Shown here: piece after piece, positions 30,105 through 50,526 of the stretch
Position numbering within the stretch: the first letter of the stretch is position 1
Layout of the letters: each line of letters opens with the position of its first letter
Assembly: GCF_007992095.1 (NCBI RefSeq)
Contig: NZ_BJZP01000003.1
Span: 1 to 64,000 of the forward strand
Reading direction: 5' to 3'
Origin: Paenirhizobium naphthalenivorans
GTDB taxonomy: Bacteria > Pseudomonadota > Alphaproteobacteria > Rhizobiales > Rhizobiaceae
DNA length: 64,000 bases
Position numbers and translations under genes: made by a program
The notes under the pieces: model-generated
Seen by the model: only the letters and a program-made list of their open reading frames with translations
What the model was told of the DNA's origin: nothing
The model's database searches: none

Positions 30105-30313
30105 CAGAGGCTTCACAACCCCGCAAGGGATTCGAATATTGATAAGCGGTTAGGCTTAACGAATGGTTAGAAACGCCTGTCGCATCAACGCCTTCTCACG
30201 CTCGAACCGAAGCGAATCCGAACGCCGGCGATCCGCGATTGCGGCGCCTTTTCAAAGGATTGCGCTTTTCGCTGAACAAGGCGGCGCACAGCACCGAGCC
30301 TCGAAGAAAAAAC

Positions 30314-30710
30314 GCCAGTTGGCCTGTAAGCCGGGTTCTGTATGGCCCCGGTTTCCCGGAACGTGGCAGCCATTCATCTGGGACAGCGTTTGCACGCTGC
30401 CTCACGCAACCCACCCGGATGACTGGCCCGGAAACAGGCTGTGGCCGCGCTTGCGCGCGACCCGCGTCATCCCTATTCGGTCTTGCTCCCGGTGGGGTTT
30501 ACCGTGCCGTCCCTGTCGCCAGCGACGCGGTGGGCTCTTACCCCACCCTTTCACCCTTACCTCGCAAGCGAGGCGGTTTGCTTTCTGTGGCACTTTCCCT
30601 GAGGTCACCCCCGCCGGACGTTATCCGGCACCGTGTTTCCGTGGAGCCCGGACTTTCCTCACCCTACCGCCTTTCGGCATTGGTAAAGCGCGGCTGCCCG
30701 GCCAACTGGC
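30314..30710 (-). ncRNA. rnpB: RNase P RNA, type A
   Basis: Catalytic RNA that trims the 5' leader of tRNA precursors together with RnpA. Read on the minus strand, the two ends pair perfectly as helix P1 (GCCAGTTGGC with GCCAACTGGC). The universal core GAGGAAAGTCCGGGCT maps to 30645-30660. GGTAAACCCCACC, GAATAGGGATGAC and the tail AGAACCCGGCTTACAGGCC are also present. Length, about 400 bases, fits alphaproteobacteria. A run of Ts follows the 3' end. Ends are set by the P1 pairing and may extend a few bases. Confidence 0.95.
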
Positions 30711-40289: not shown

Positions 40290-40335
40290 AGTGCCCGGCT
40301 ACACGCCATCAACGTTCAATGGATGGCTGACAAAG

Positions 40336-41583
40336 ATGACCGATGTTGCCCCTGATGCCGGCTTTCGCAAGAACCACAAGCTGAAGAATGCCCTGTTGCA
40401 GCACAAGCCGTTGAGCCGCGACGGCCTGTCGGAAAGGTTGTTTGAACTGCTGTTTTCCGGACTTGTCTATGCGCAGATCTGGGAGGACCCGGAAGTCGAC
40501 ATGGAAGCCATGGAGCTGGCCGAGGGCCATTCGATCGTGACGATCGGCTCCGGCGGCTGCAACATGCTCGCCTACCTCACCCGCCATCCGTCACACATCG
40601 ACGTGGTCGACCTCAATCCCAATCATGTTGCCCTGAATCGGCTCAAACTCGCCGCCTTCCGCCATCTGCCGGATCACGAAACGGTCGTGCGTAAGTTCGC
40701 CGGCGAAAGGAACCGCACCAACAGCCGCAACTTCGACCGCTATATCGCCCCCAATCTGGACGCCTCCACGCGCGCCTATTGGAACCGACGCCGCATCGAC
40801 GGCAAACGCCGGATCGCCGCCTTCGACGGCAATTTCTGCCGCACCGGCCTGCTAGGCCGCTTCATCGGCGCGGGTCATCTGATGGCGCGCCTGCATGGCG
40901 TCGATCTGACCGAGATCGTCGAGACGAAATCCCTGCGCGATCAGCGCCACTTCTTCGATACGCGCATTGCGCCGCTGTTTGAAAAGCCGCTGGTCCGCTG
41001 GATGACCAGTCGCAAAAGTTCGCTCTTCGGCCTGGGCATTCCACCACAGCAATATGACGAACTGGCCAGCCTTTCGGGAGGCGGCACGATCGCCCCGGTG
41101 CTTCGTCATCGGCTGGAAAAGCTGACCTGCCACTTTCCGCTGAAGGAAAACTATTTCGCCTGGCAGGCCTTTGTCCGACGCTATCCGCAGCCGCACGAGG
41201 GTTTGCTGCCGACCTATCTGCAGGAGAAAAACTATCCGGCGATCCGCGCCAACGCCGACCGCGTGACCGTCCACCACGCAAACTTCACCGAGCTTCTGAA
41301 GGTGAAGCCCGCCGAAAGCGTCGATCGCTACATCCTGCTGGACGCGCAGGACTGGATGAATGACGCGCAACTCAACGACCTATGGGGCGAAATCACCCGG
41401 ACAGCGGCCCCTGACGCACGCGTCATCTTCCGCACCGCCGCTGAAAAGAGCGTGCTCGACGGCCGTCTCTCCGACGCGCTGCTTGACCAGTGGACCTACC
41501 ATGCCGGGCGCTCCGAGGAACTGAACAAGCGTGACCGCTCGGCGATCTACGGCGGCTTCCACATATACGAAAGGAAGGCCTGA
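40336..41583 (+). CDS. btaA: BtaA: SAM:diacylglycerol 3-amino-3-carboxypropyltransferase
   Basis: First enzyme of betaine lipid (DGTS) synthesis: it moves the aminocarboxypropyl group of S-adenosylmethionine onto diacylglycerol. The 415-residue protein belongs to the DUF3419 family. It shows SGLVYAQIWEDPEVDMEAM near the N terminus, the SAM-site phrases IVTIGSGGCNMLAYL and VDLNPNHVALNRLKL, and a C-terminal region with LLDAQDWM and IFRTAAEKS. The start at 40336 (MTDVAPDAGF) is chosen because sequence upstream is unlike the family. The stop overlaps the btaB start as TGATG, so the two enzymes are made together. Phosphate starvation control is likely. Confidence 0.94.
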   Translation: MTDVAPDAGFRKNHKLKNALLQHKPLSRDGLSERLFELLFSGLVYAQIWEDPEVDMEAMELAEGHSIVTIGSGGCNMLAYLTRHPSHIDVVDLNPNHVALNRLKLAAFRHLPDHETVVRKFAGERNRTNSRNFDRYIAPNLDASTRAYWNRRRIDGKRRIAAFDGNFCRTGLLGRFIGAGHLMARLHGVDLTEIVETKSLRDQRHFFDTRIAPLFEKPLVRWMTSRKSSLFGLGIPPQQYDELASLSGGGTIAPVLRHRLEKLTCHFPLKENYFAWQAFVRRYPQPHEGLLPTYLQEKNYPAIRANADRVTVHHANFTELLKVKPAESVDRYILLDAQDWMNDAQLNDLWGEITRTAAPDARVIFRTAAEKSVLDGRLSDALLDQWTYHAGRSEELNKRDRSAIYGGFHIYERKA

Positions 41584-42245
41584 TGGCCCTCGGTTCGACC
41601 GAGCCGCAGCTCGACCGCGACCATGCCGCGCGCATGGACGGCATGTATCGCTACCAGCGCCACATCTACGACCTGACGCGGAAATACTATCTGTTCGGCC
41701 GCGACCGGATGATTGCGCGCCTTGATGTGCCGCGCGACGGCTCCCTGTTGGAAGTCGGCTGCGGCACTGGCCGCAATCTGTTGCTGGCCCACCGGATCTA
41801 TCCAACGGCCCGGCTTCACGGCCTCGACATATCCGCGGAGATGCTAGTCTCGGCCAGGGCCAATTTTCGTGGCATGCCGGTCATGCCGAAGCTGGAGGTG
41901 GCCGACGCCACGGCCTTTACCCCGACCGTGTTCGGCGTCGAGGGTTTTGACCGCGTCATGATCTCCTATGCGCTCTCGATGATCCCCGATTGGGAGAAAG
42001 CGATCGACGCATCGCTTGCGGCCCTGAGACCCGGTGGATCGCTGCACATCGTCGATTTTGGCCAGCAGGAAGGCCTTCCAGGCTGGTCACGCCGCATGCT
42101 GCAAGGTTGGCTCGCCCGATTCCACGTGACCCCGCGCGCGACGCTTCAGGCGGTACTCGGGGCCAAGGCCGAGATGGTCAAGGGGAGTCTGGAGTTCGAG
42201 CCGATCGGGCGTGGCTACGCCTGGCATGCGGTGATTCGCATCTGA
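41583..42245 (+). CDS. btaB: BtaB: diacylglyceryl-homoserine N-methyltransferase
   Basis: Adds three methyl groups to diacylglyceryl-homoserine to give the phosphorus-free betaine lipid DGTS. The 220-residue class I SAM methyltransferase has motif I as LLEVGCGTGRNLL, the acidic loop LHGLDISAEML, then VMISYALSMIPDWEKA and LRPGGSLHIVDFGQ. It overlaps btaA by one base. Together the two genes let the cell replace phospholipids when phosphate is scarce. Confidence 0.93.
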   Translation: MALGSTEPQLDRDHAARMDGMYRYQRHIYDLTRKYYLFGRDRMIARLDVPRDGSLLEVGCGTGRNLLLAHRIYPTARLHGLDISAEMLVSARANFRGMPVMPKLEVADATAFTPTVFGVEGFDRVMISYALSMIPDWEKAIDASLAALRPGGSLHIVDFGQQEGLPGWSRRMLQGWLARFHVTPRATLQAVLGAKAEMVKGSLEFEPIGRGYAWHAVIRI

Positions 42246-45771: not shown

Positions 45772-45894
45772 TCTACAAATCAACGGGGGTGCGACAAGTT
45801 TTCCACCATCTTCAACGGCGGTGCAGCACATTAATCGCTTTCCTTGCGACACAAATCCGACATATTATCTAACAGTCAACACAAGGAGGCAGAT

Positions 45895-45972
45895 ATGGGA
45901 CTTACAAACTCTCTCAATGTCCTGATCGTCGGTGCGGCGTTTGTGTTTATCGCAACGATGCTGTTCATCTAA
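45895..45972 (+). CDS. 25-residue single-span membrane peptide
   Basis: An open frame of 26 codons with a strong ribosome-binding site (AAGGAGG, 7 bases before the ATG). The peptide begins MGLTNSLN. The rest is a hydrophobic helix (about residues 8-25, LIVGAAFVFIATMLFI) that would just cross the inner membrane. A bidirectional terminator lies about 80 bases downstream and about 230 non-coding bases upstream, so it is an independent transcript. I do not recognise a family. Short membrane peptides of this sort often bind and tune larger membrane proteins, but nothing here shows a partner. Confidence 0.65.
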   Translation: MGLTNSLNVLIVGAAFVFIATMLFI

Positions 45973-46054
45973 CCGAAATGAGTTGAACAAGAGGCCTTGA
46001 AGGATCCGCAAGCGATCAGGCCCGAATAAGCCATCAGAGCTTTCCAGTTTGAAG

Positions 46055-46092
46055 AAAAAAGGCGCATCGTCCGATTGGAGATGCGCCTTTTT
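46055..46092. terminator. Bidirectional terminator
   Basis: A stem of about 13 bases (46055-46068 with 46080-46092) has an A tract on one side and a T tract on the other, with a loop of about 11 bases. It separates the small peptide gene (plus) from metF (minus) and can end both transcripts. Confidence 0.85.
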
Positions 46093-46114
46093 CATTGCAT
46101 GGATGGTCGCTGTA

Positions 46115-47029
46115 TCAGGCCGCTGCGCCGGCTCCATCATCCGCCAAAGCCCTAGGGCGCAGACCCAGATTGCCAAGCGTTGCTGTCACGAGTGCAGAAC
46201 GATTCATCGTGTAGAGATGGAAATCGCTGATACCACGTCGCGCAAGATCCTCGATCTGTTCGGCAGCGACCGCCGCAGCAACCTCGGCGCGGGCCTTCGG
46301 CTGGTCGTCCAGACCGGCAAAACGGTCATCGAGGAAACCCGGTATGGTCGCGCCGCACATCGAAGCGAAACGCTTGAGCTGGGTGAGGTTCTGGATCGGC
46401 ATGATGCCGGGAACGATCGGGACGGAAATCCCGGCGGCCCTGACCCGCTCGAGGTAGCGCTCGAAAACATCATTGTCGAAGAAGAACTGGGTGAGCGCCC
46501 GGCAGGCGCCATTGTCGACCTTGCGCTTCAGCATATCGATGTCAGCCGCGACGTCGGGGCTTTCGGGGTGTTTTTCCGGATAGGCCGAAACGGAAATCTC
46601 GAAACCACCCATCTCCCGCAGACCAGCGACCAGTTCTGCCGCATTGGAATAGCCGCCCGGATAGGGTTGATAAGCACTCCCCATGCCCCCTTGCGGATCG
46701 CCGCGCAATGCGACGAAATGCTTGACGCCCACAGAGCGGAACTGCTCGACCACTTGCCGCACCTCATCCTTCGTCGCCCCGACACAGGTCAGGTGCGACG
46801 CGGTCGGCAGCGCCGTCTCGCTAATGAGCCTCTTCACGGTCGAGAGAGTCGGCTCGCGGGTCGTACCGCCCGCGCCATAGGTGACGGACACGAAATCCGG
46901 GGTCCACAGCGACAACGCCTCGACCGTCTTCCATAGCTGGTCGGCCATATCTTCCGACTTCGGCGGAAAGAACTCGAAGGAAAAGCGCAGGCGCCTGGTA
47001 GTCACGCTCTCTTGCTCCTCAGTCGCCAT
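46115..47029 (-). CDS. metF: 5,10-methylenetetrahydrofolate reductase
   Basis: Reduces methylenetetrahydrofolate to 5-methyltetrahydrofolate, the methyl donor for methionine synthesis. The 304-residue FAD enzyme has FSFEFFPPKS (catalytic Glu), VTYGAGGTTR, HLTCVGATKDEV, ALRGDPQGG and FFDNDVFERY. Length is typical. Its start overlaps the end of the upstream ArsR-methyltransferase gene by 11 bases, so the regulator and the enzyme form one operon under the palindrome at 48069-48084. Confidence 0.96.
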   Translation of the reverse strand: MATEEQESVTTRRLRFSFEFFPPKSEDMADQLWKTVEALSLWTPDFVSVTYGAGGTTREPTLSTVKRLISETALPTASHLTCVGATKDEVRQVVEQFRSVGVKHFVALRGDPQGGMGSAYQPYPGGYSNAAELVAGLREMGGFEISVSAYPEKHPESPDVAADIDMLKRKVDNGACRALTQFFFDNDVFERYLERVRAAGISVPIVPGIMPIQNLTQLKRFASMCGATIPGFLDDRFAGLDDQPKARAEVAAAVAAEQIEDLARRGISDFHLYTMNRSALVTATLGNLGLRPRALADDGAGAAA

Positions 47030-48050
47030 TTTCCTGCTCCCCCTTCACTACACTCGTATCGCTGATCTGCTCCGCGGTAATCTCGCCGCCCTGGCGGGCC
47101 AACCAGATGGTCACCGTCAATCCTTTGCTCGCCGCATCGTCCGGCGGCAGGTCGACAGTCTGCTCGACTGTCAGACCGTATTTGGCCAGCCACTCGGCCA
47201 TGGTCTGGCGCGAAAAGCCCAGCCGCACATGAGCGTGCTCGTCGCGCAGATATTCGAGGGCGTGCGGGGCGAGATCGATGATCACCAGCCGACCGCCCGG
47301 CTTCAGCATGCGGCTCGCCTCGGCCAGAGCCAGTTCAGGCTGGACGAGGAAGTGCAGCACCTGATGGATAATGACGACGTCGTACTCGTTGGCATCGAGC
47401 GGCAGATTAAGAATGTCGCCGTGGCGGACCGAGGCTTTGAGCACGCCCGCCTTGTCCAGATTGGCGCGCGCCACGGCCAGCATGTCGCGGCTGGCGTCGA
47501 TGCCGGTGGCACGGCGATAGCTGTTCTGCAAAAGCTGGAGAATACGGCCGGTGCCGGTGCCGAGATCGAGCAAAGCATCGACCACCTTCGGACCAACCAG
47601 TTCAAGCAGCTTGGTCTCGACGGCGGTGTCATCGACATGCAGGCGGCGCAGTTCGTCCCATTCAGACGCATTGCGCTTGAAATACTCCTGCGCGCGTTCG
47701 GCACGAGCACGCTTCACCGCAGCCAGACGCTCGCTGTCGCGCAGGAGCACGGCATCGTTCTCGTTCGTGGCAGCCAGCAGAGTATTGACGAGCCCCGCAG
47801 CGTCACCGTCCCGCTTCAGACGAAAATAGGCCCATGCCCCCTCTTGATAGCGGTCGATCAGACCGGCCTCGGTGAGTAGCTTCAAGTGGCGGGAAATACG
47901 TGGCTGCGACTGTCCAAGGATGTCGGTGAGGTCCGTCACAGTCAGATCGCCGGCAGCAAGCAGCGCCAGGAGTCGAAGGCGCGTCGGTTCACCCGCCGCC
48001 TTGAGCAGCTCCACCAGTGCATCGACTCCAAATTTCATGCCGTCAGCCAT
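47019..48050 (-). CDS. ArsR-type regulator fused to a SAM methyltransferase domain (SahR-like)
   Basis: A 343-residue fusion. Residues about 5-95 form a winged helix of the ArsR family (LLKAAGEPTRLRLLALL, then DILGQSQPRISRHLKLL as recognition helix). Residues about 140-320 form a class I methyltransferase-like domain with LLDLGTGTGRIL, ATGIDASRDML, DVVIIHQVLHFL and [15 protein letters not shown]. This architecture next to metF matches SahR, the regulator of methionine-cycle genes in Proteobacteria that responds to S-adenosylhomocysteine. The start at 48050 (MADGMKFG) is preferred to the Met five codons upstream; MKFG is a third option. No arsenic-type Cys pair is visible in the DNA-binding part. 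Confidence 0.85.
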   Translation of the reverse strand: MADGMKFGVDALVELLKAAGEPTRLRLLALLAAGDLTVTDLTDILGQSQPRISRHLKLLTEAGLIDRYQEGAWAYFRLKRDGDAAGLVNTLLAATNENDAVLLRDSERLAAVKRARAERAQEYFKRNASEWDELRRLHVDDTAVETKLLELVGPKVVDALLDLGTGTGRILQLLQNSYRRATGIDASRDMLAVARANLDKAGVLKASVRHGDILNLPLDANEYDVVIIHQVLHFLVQPELALAEASRMLKPGGRLVIIDLAPHALEYLRDEHAHVRLGFSRQTMAEWLAKYGLTVEQTVDLPPDDAASKGLTVTIWLARQGGEITAEQISDTSVVKGEQENGD

Positions 48051-48068
48051 AGCAAACCCAATCAAGAT

Positions 48069-48084
48069 ATAAAGATGTCTTTAT
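48069..48084. promoter_or_regulatory. 16-bp perfect palindrome, candidate operator
   Basis: ATAAAGA-TG-TCTTTAT is a perfect 7+2+7 inverted repeat 19 bases before the regulator start. Its size and A/T-rich arms fit an ArsR/SahR dimer site. Its position suggests autoregulation together with metF. Confidence 0.65.
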
Positions 48085-48176
48085 GTCAATTGAGCCATCT
48101 ATGCAAGAGCAAATCATTCGCCGCTGGCAATGGTAAATGCAGCAGAAGATCTGCACCTAGGTTTCCGGCCACAAAA

Positions 48177-48205
48177 AAAGGCGGCCGCGCATGACGGCCG
48201 CCTTT
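48177..48205 (-). terminator. Terminator after the chemoreceptor gene
   Basis: On the minus strand an 11-base stem, mostly G and C, with a 7-base loop is followed by a run of Ts, 27 bases past the stop of the gene at 48232. Confidence 0.85.
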
Positions 48206-48231
48206 CAGAAATGATCAGTGAGGATGGATTG

Positions 48232-50526
48232 TCAGAACTCCTGCCAATCCTCGCCCTGCTGGGCCAGCGCCGCATTACCCTGGCTGGCGAACACGGGGCG
48301 GGCTCGGCTCGGCACCGGTCGCGCAGCTTCGGGGGCCGCCCGCGAGGTGGGGCGAGCGGCAGCGGCACCAGCAACCTGAACGGTTCGCTGCAGGACATGA
48401 CCGGTACGAAAGCGCGACAGAAGCTCGACCAACCTCCCGCTTTCCTGGGCAAGGCTTGCACCAGCCGCATTCATCTCCTCAACCATCGCCGCATTCTGTT
48501 GCGTCGCCTGGTCCATGTGATTGACGGCGGTGTTGACTTCGCCGAGACCGACGGACTGTTCCTGCGCTGCCGTCGAGATCGCTCCCATGTGACTGTTGAT
48601 CGACAGGACGAGTTCGGCAATGGATGAAAGTCCCTCACCCGTATCGTTGACCAGGCGAACGCCTTCACTGACAGCGGCTTCGGAACTGCTGATCAGCGCC
48701 TTGATCTCCTTAGCCGCATTGGCCGAGCGTTGCGCCAGTTCGCGCACTTCCTGGGCGACAACAGCAAAGCCCTTGCCCGCGTCACCGGCACGCGCCGCCT
48801 CGACACCAGCGTTCAGCGCCAGAAGGTTCGTCTGGAAGGCGATCTCGTCGATCACACCGATGATCTGCCCGATCTGGCGGGACGAATGCTCGATGCGCCC
48901 CATGGCCGAGACGGCATTGTTGACAACCTCGCCGGACTTTTCCGCTCTCTGGCGGGTGGTTTCGACCAGATCACGGGCCTCCGCCGTACGTTTCGACGTG
49001 GACACGACATTGGCGGTGATCTCTTCCAGAGCAGCGGCAGTCTGCTCAAGCGAGGCAGCCTGCTGCTCGGTGCGCTTGGCGAGGCTGTCCGACGCCTGCG
49101 AGACTTCGCCTGATCCGCTGGTCACGGTGCCAGCAACCTGGCCGACACTCTGCATGACCTCGCGCAACTGGCGTAGCGATGTGTTGAAATCATGGCGCAA
49201 GGCCTCGAACTGAGGCGCAAACTCCTCCTCAATCTCGGTCAAGAGATCACCAGCGGCGAGCCGCTGCAAACCAGCAGCCAACGAGCCAGTCGCACGGCTC
49301 AGACGCTCCTCGGCCTCCGCCTCTGCCCGGGCCTGCATCTCTGCACGCTCGCGCTCGGCGACCATGCGATTCTGCTCGGCGCTTGCTTCCAGCTCGGCGT
49401 TGCGAATCGCAGCCTGGCGGAACACTTCGACCGAGCGTGCCATGCCACCAATTTCGTCGCGGCGGTCGGCATAGGGGATCGCGCTCTGTGTATCGCCTTC
49501 GGCCAGCGACTTCATTCGTTCACCGATACGGTTGATCGAACCGGACAGAACCCGGGCAATGACCACGGCAAGGCCGATGACGACCAGCACCGCAGCAGCC
49601 ACTCCGGCCAGCAGAATCATCAAGCGCGTCTGGGCTGCGGCCGATTTCTCATCGATCAACTGCGTCATCCGTTCGCCAGTCTTGGCAATCAAATCGGAGA
49701 CGAAGGCACGCCTGTCGTCATGTGCGGCAATCCAGGCTTCTAGTTCGCCCTCCGATGCCGTGTAGGGCTCATTCTTCAGCATCGCTTGGCGCAGCGTTTC
49801 GATCCGCTTGCCAGTCGGCTGTTCGAAGTAAGCCCGGTGGCTCGAAACAAGATCGGCCGGCACGGCTTCATCAACCACCTTGCCAAAAGTCTTGAGCAGC
49901 ATGTCGCTGCGCTGGACCATGGCAAAAGCCGGCGGCTCCAGTGTGCCCGCCTTGAGATAGGCCTGACCGAGACGATTGAGCACCTGGTAGGCATCGCTCA
50001 CCTGCATAAAGGCGAAATAGCCGGAGATCGCAGCCGAAAGTTCATGATCCTCGGAAAGGGTGGCGGCGCGACGGGTCAGTTCAGAGCTTGACGCAACGAT
50101 CGGCTGCACGATCTCAAGAGCGAGCAGCGGCGGCGCAGTGCCGTCATCCGTCTTGGCGCGAAACTCCGCCAGCCGCGACAGCTTTTCGTCGTACAGCCGC
50201 TTGAGCGACTGCAGGCCCGGATCGTCGTAGCCCTGGGCCAGAACCTCGCGATAACTGGCCTCGATCGCGGCCGCCACCGCGTCTGTCCGGGCACGGTACT
50301 CCGCCCGCTGGGCCACAGCGGCACCGGTCTCGGCCGGCCCGGCCAGCCCCATAGCAATGCCACTCTCGGCAAGGTCGGCAAGCCGCGTAGCCCGATGCAG
50401 TTCATCGCTTTCGCGATAGGAAATCAGGCTCAACCAACCACCGAGTACGAGTACGGCCAGCAAGGGCACTGCCGCAAGGCTGGTCAGAAGAGCGCGGAAA
50501 GACAGGGTTCCAAGTAAAGTGCGCAT
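48232..50526 (-). CDS. Methyl-accepting chemotaxis protein with C-terminal xWxxF tether
   Basis: A 764-residue transmembrane chemoreceptor. A first membrane helix (about 10-35) is followed by a large, mostly helical periplasmic domain (about 40-300) that resembles nitrate-sensing (NIT-like) modules. A second helix (about 304-328), HAMP-type linkers and the MCP signalling domain come next. The signalling hairpin tip reads [20 protein letters not shown]. The protein ends in DWQEF, which fits the xWxxF pentapeptide that tethers the adaptation enzymes CheR and CheB in E. coli-type receptors. It signals to CheA/CheW; the ligand is unknown. No other chemotaxis gene lies nearby. Confidence 0.93.

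Follow-up and report, generated by a model that had tools for sequence, protein, structure and literature searches.

The window analysed here is a stretch of 64,000 nucleotides in which two overlapping genes of the minus strand, sahR and metF, are preceded by a short near-palindrome. The regulator gene sahR (47019-48050, minus) encodes 343 amino acids when read from the ATG at 48050, with an ArsR winged helix at residues ~9-80 and a class I SAM-methyltransferase fold at residues ~141-320. Translation from an alternative TTG at 48065 would give a longer ORF; alignment with relatives favours the ATG, without proving it, as the start. Downstream lies metF (46115-47029, minus), whose product was identified as methylenetetrahydrofolate reductase by the MTHFR family (3.4e-87) and by TIGR00676 (336.5 bits for a cut-off of 293.7). 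Both ORFs can be read at 47019-47029, which bears out the 11-base overlap of the regulator with metF noted in the first-pass annotation. The overlap varies locally. Among the 80 named relatives that we compared, which are the best 80 of 452 related stretches, the nearest metF ATG mostly stands at the sahR stop or a few bases past it, and a possible overlap was seen elsewhere among them in L028 (14 bases) and in L078 and L090 (4 bases).

The sahR product unites in one protein an ArsR-type helix-turn-helix and a SAM-dependent methyltransferase fold, which is the architecture of SahR. A domain search placed HTH_5 at residues 22-66 (1.5e-14) and Methyltransf_11 at residues 161-257 (2.1e-25). The helix-turn-helix scores 81 bits with the ArsR-repressor model NF033788, whose cut-off is 55; ArsM models also match the protein, but below their cut-off. 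Across 40 aligned sequences, the SAM-binding motif DxGTGT and the recognition-helix motifs QSQP and SRHLK are invariant. The window protein contains no cysteine. The same holds for 71 of the best 80 named relatives, the other 9 having a single one, and the count is 1-6 in 29 relatives from the class. No alignment column is a cysteine in at least 90% of the 40 sequences; one column is a cysteine in at least 50% of them, and it is occupied by alanine in the window protein.

Just upstream of sahR, a perfect 16-base palindrome had been announced. We located the element at 48069-48084 (ATAAAGATGTCTTTAT), 18 bases before the ATG and only 3 before the TTG. Its position was thus correctly described, but it is not perfect, since two 7-base arms enclose 2 unpaired central bases and 14 of the 16 positions are self-complementary. 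From its sequence and from the genome search described below, we take it as a predicted SahR operator core of the form ATAAAGA-NN-TCTTTAT, the window copy being ATAAAGA-TG-TCTTTAT. Two more positions pair past one mismatched position, extending the core to a 22-base imperfect dyad (48066-48087). A palindrome of about 20 bases in front of its own gene, a known feature of SahR, is therefore present, in imperfect form, in the window copy. A consensus scan of 45800-48250 detected no sigma-70 promoter overlapping the operator. The sahR and metH sites do contain the hexamer TTGACA, but without a matching -10 element, and no promoter is claimed.

The source genome (4.95 Mb in 139 contigs) was searched with the query ATAAAGANNTCTTTAT. 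Five sites were found with at most one mismatch, every one upstream of methyl-cycle genes: 18 bases upstream of sahR-metF (C3:48069), 344 bases upstream of metE (C1:326140), 136 bases upstream of ahcY (C21:27353), 73 bases upstream of metK (C2:192839) and 40 bases upstream of metH (C3:82562). The target genes were named by NCBIfam, metE and metH from N-terminal fragments whose scores are below the whole-protein cut-offs. The consensus of the five sites is GACATAAAGANNTCTTTATGTC, and the positions identical in all five, aligned in gene orientation, are GACATAAA. A control pattern read backwards gave no site with at most one mismatch in the same genome. At exactly two mismatches, 3 sites were found for the real pattern and 5 for the control, both of which represent background, and inspection by eye recognised no methyl-cycle gene at the three real ones. 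The operator thus stands at the core SAM-cycle genes ahcY, metH, metF and metK, metF having no site other than the one in front of sahR. The first-pass annotation had presented the pair and its palindrome as a self-contained switch and had named a palindrome restricted to this locus, together with a lack of any effect of SAH on binding, as what would speak against it. Neither a self-contained switch nor a restricted palindrome describes what we found, the window site being one of five in the genome. Of the additional locations that it had suggested searching, metH, metK and ahcY do carry a site with at most one mismatch, and bmt carries none.

The same search was extended to other genomes. In 18 genomes of the same genus, including the source genome, the pattern gave 83 sites and the control 4, with the proviso that these genomes are related and not independent. 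Searching 12 further genomes from the order gave 29 and 15; the control exceeded the pattern in three of them (G208, G209 and G213) and a fourth, G215, had no site. Because of these totals and of the three genomes in which the control is ahead, a bare site count means little outside the genus.

The locus itself is widely kept. Among the best 80 of the 452 related stretches, an operator with at most one mismatch lies just upstream of sahR in all 80, the reversed control reaching 3-7 mismatches at best, and metF lies just downstream in all 80 by tblastn (in 71 by motif search). The nearest of these relatives is Ciceribacter selenitireducens, 88% identical. By title, the 80 are rhizobial (Rhizobiaceae genera or 'Rhizobiales bacterium') save one metagenome bin titled Ferrovibrio (L020); its sahR-metF is 84% identical and resembles the Ciceribacter loci, and the bin is possibly mislabelled or contaminated. 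A locus from Sinorhizobium glycinis (L094), 69% identical, has the same layout as the window, which makes orthology with a named alphaproteobacterial SahR very likely. When 190 genomes were drawn from the class, the source genome among them, a match at E ≤ 1e-40 was obtained in 94. Among the 29 best class loci that were fetched, metF lies downstream on the same strand in 28. Their operators, counted without a control, show 0-1 mismatches in 14, 2 in 8, 3 in 5, 4 in 1 and 6 in 1. For one class locus, L131, both metF and the operator are missing from the 3.9 kb available.

The identity of the genes behind the operators was determined in several relatives. G199, G190 and G206 have five sites each, and these 15 are without exception located before ahcY, bmt, sahR, metH and metK; the five of G197 precede ahcY, metE, sahR, metH and metK. 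When a single site per genome was fetched from the 17 same-genus genomes besides the source genome, it was in all 17 located before ahcY, sahR, metH or bmt, this set overlapping those from the four genomes just named. At the level of the order, 7 of 11 fetched sites belong to sahR or ahcY, and the remaining 4 could be assigned to no queried gene. In the source genome, bmt (C1:338560-339573) has no operator with up to 3 mismatches nearby, and the closest match within 300 bases upstream still shows 7. An operator precedes bmt in 9 of 13 same-genus bmt genes (loci L191-L195 and L197-L200) and is absent from 4, those of the source genome, G202, G197 and G203 (loci L188, L189, L190 and L196). The same ABC-transporter ATPase gene adjoins bmt upstream in 13 of 13 same-genus genomes, whether the operator is there or not.

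The distribution of metE is narrow. At E ≤ 1e-60 it was detected in 2 of the 18 same-genus genomes (the source genome and G197) and in 1 of the 12 others (G211). In all three metE-bearing genomes among the 30 searched, the operator is followed by a cobalamin riboswitch and then by metE (L001:1156-1516, L180:1292-1649, L187:2571-3043). We somewhat favour the view that the SahR regulon of the source genome departs from that of most same-genus relatives, with bmt out and metE in, and that metE would be a two-input gate needing both high SAH and low B12 to be turned on. As far as the regulator is concerned, nothing else was less expected than these two details, the missing operator at bmt and the riboswitch at metE. 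With its operator followed by a B12 riboswitch, the metE leader would be a compact model of one promoter region combining two metabolic signals.

The first description of SahR is reportedly due to Novichkov and colleagues. For Alphaproteobacteria, SahR was described in 2014 by Leyn and colleagues, who found it in 11 of 15 Rhizobiales genomes with a 20-base palindrome and a core regulon of sahR, ahcY, metH, metH2, metF and metK, to which metE and bhmT are added in part of the genomes (PMC4239095). As far as that description goes, nothing essential differs here: the regulator type, the palindrome of about 20 bases (compared by description) and the targets sahR, ahcY, metH, metF and metK, with metE as an occasional member, are alike, and the genome-specific bhmT, our bmt, is not a target in the source genome. 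In another rhizobial system, Ensifer aridi LMR001, Belfquih and colleagues deleted sahR in 2022 and predicted SahR sites at sahR, ahcY, metH, bhmT and metK; the sahR promoter was most active in the deletion, which they read as autoregulation (PMC8877191). The E. aridi site at bhmT has no counterpart at bmt here, whereas the metE site found here is not among the E. aridi sites just listed. The same paper cites SAH-dependent DNA binding by SahR of Desulfovibrio, and a Brucella transcriptome paper mentions ahcY, metH, metF and sahR side by side and refers to the SahR regulon (PMC8710502).

On this basis we are confident that the window regulator is the SahR of a Ciceribacter-like member of the Rhizobiaceae, a predicted repressor at five operators that SAH would release. 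This was the reading put forward in the first-pass annotation, and it is supported by the domain architecture, the lack of cysteine, the operators at methyl-cycle genes and the close rhizobial loci of the same layout. The finding is real, well supported and ordinary; the idea of SahR is very probably correct and has already been published. A known regulator is thus confirmed for a further rhizobial genome, and what is of use is the contrast with relatives, metE being among the targets here and bmt not.

We infer that the window protein acts as a dimer, that sahR and metF are transcribed as an operon, and that repression is relieved by SAH. The ArsR-type winged helices of the SahR dimer would bind the palindrome of about 20-22 bases before its own operon sahR-metF and before ahcY, metK, metH and metE, and would thereby repress these genes. 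When SAH accumulates, it would occupy the pocket of the methyltransferase fold and SahR would leave the DNA. The enzymes would then be produced jointly: AhcY would remove SAH, MetF together with MetH or MetE would remethylate homocysteine, and MetK would remake SAM.

Methyltransferase pockets usually bind both SAM and SAH. A regulator of the SamR kind, answering SAM rather than SAH, is nevertheless unlikely here. SamR is a distant homologue of SahR that also controls methionine genes and whose effector is not established in the work that describes it (PMC4239095). In that account, however, it is reported only from another order, the Xanthomonadales, where its motif has 24 bases and its different gene set contains no SAM-cycle gene except metK, whereas ahcY is a target here and the relatives are Rhizobiaceae. 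SamR itself is ruled out by taxon and gene set. Furthermore, SAM is already watched in the source genome through SAM_alpha riboswitches located at metA and at metZ, the gene for O-succinylhomoserine sulfhydrylase. From these sequence assignments it appears that SAM is read by RNA and SAH by SahR, a division that fits the two Rhizobiales regulons described by Leyn and colleagues (PMC4239095).

In the AlphaFold model of SahR (pLDDT 87.6, pTM 0.79), a long helix connects the winged helix to the methyltransferase fold. Its top Foldseek matches are methyltransferases, several of them with SAM or SAH bound, and the best ones of similar length are Rv2258c, MfnG, RdmB and DnrK. The model and these matches fit a SAM/SAH-binding domain, and the predicted pocket looks like those of active methyltransferases. 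That the domain of SahR still transfers methyl groups and so resets its own switch is, in our opinion, very improbable. Some small-molecule O-methyltransferases carry a winged-helix N-terminus, and the matches of similar length together with the complete SAM motif would also agree with an active methyltransferase whose helix-turn-helix merely serves dimerisation. We give hardly any credence to such an enzyme: the full-length proteins superpose poorly (rmsd ~16-20 Å in the long alignments listed, and 2.8-6.4 Å in shorter, single-domain ones), the helix-turn-helix strongly matches ArsR repressors and the core of its recognition helix is invariant, and relatives keep the operator together with the gene. 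Among solved structures, 84 distinct sequences match SahR, and in the 60 listed no best-matching stretch spans both domains. We infer that the methyltransferase fold of SahR is a sensor rather than an enzyme.

ArsR proteins need cysteines for sensing, and ArsM needs them for catalysis. An ArsRM-type bifunctional protein, with an ArsR part sensing As(III) and another part methylating arsenite, can practically be dismissed: the order of its domains is the same, a fusion of ArsR and methyltransferase functions in one protein is reported for arsenic resistance in Brevundimonas sp. M20 (PMC10190100), and the sub-threshold ArsM matches and the single half-conserved cysteine column point the same way, but the lack of cysteine in the window protein and in most named relatives, the absence of any cysteine conserved at 90% and the location of all five sites at methyl-cycle genes speak against an arsenic regulator or methyltransferase.

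On the opposite strand and adjoining metF, the window carries Atu_C9 (45874-46089, plus), filed in Rfam as an sRNA (RF02503). It contains a 25-codon ORF preceded by AAGGAGG (45895-45972 with its stop, plus), which encodes the conserved hydrophobic peptide MGLTNSLNVLIVGAAFVFIATMLFI. A like peptide was found in the Atu_C9 match of all 13 relatives scanned, these being 13 of the 80 loci, and a strict pattern retrieved it from 45 of the 80 loci as 38 distinct sequences. Codons unlike those of the window comprise 293 synonymous and 128 non-synonymous ones in a count made without a control, whose ratio is biased since the strict pattern selects for likeness. The differences at codon positions 1, 2 and 3 number 108, 67 and 341, and despite this bias the third-position excess is what coding sequence shows. 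Among Pfam and NCBIfam families, none matched the peptide at E ≤ 1. Although filed as an sRNA, Atu_C9 probably represents a small mRNA or a dual-function RNA, and the peptide may be newer than the SahR finding. In Sinorhizobium, ribosome profiling located 33% of 54 non-annotated small ORFs on annotated sRNAs (PMC10117765).

Other neighbours of the methyl-cycle genes were also observed. The interval that separates metH from a divergent gene holds the metH operator (L005:1460-1652), an arrangement kept in L145, L152, L154, L168, L170, L176 and L182. The divergent gene, which we take to encode an AGE-like sugar epimerase, may be co-regulated. Within the window, a gene for a DUF3419 protein is followed by one for a small methyltransferase (40330-42245, plus) a few kb from sahR-metF; we presume that this pair resembles the betaine-lipid genes btaA-btaB, itself a user of SAM. 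A class A RNase P RNA is encoded at 30311-30709 on the minus strand.
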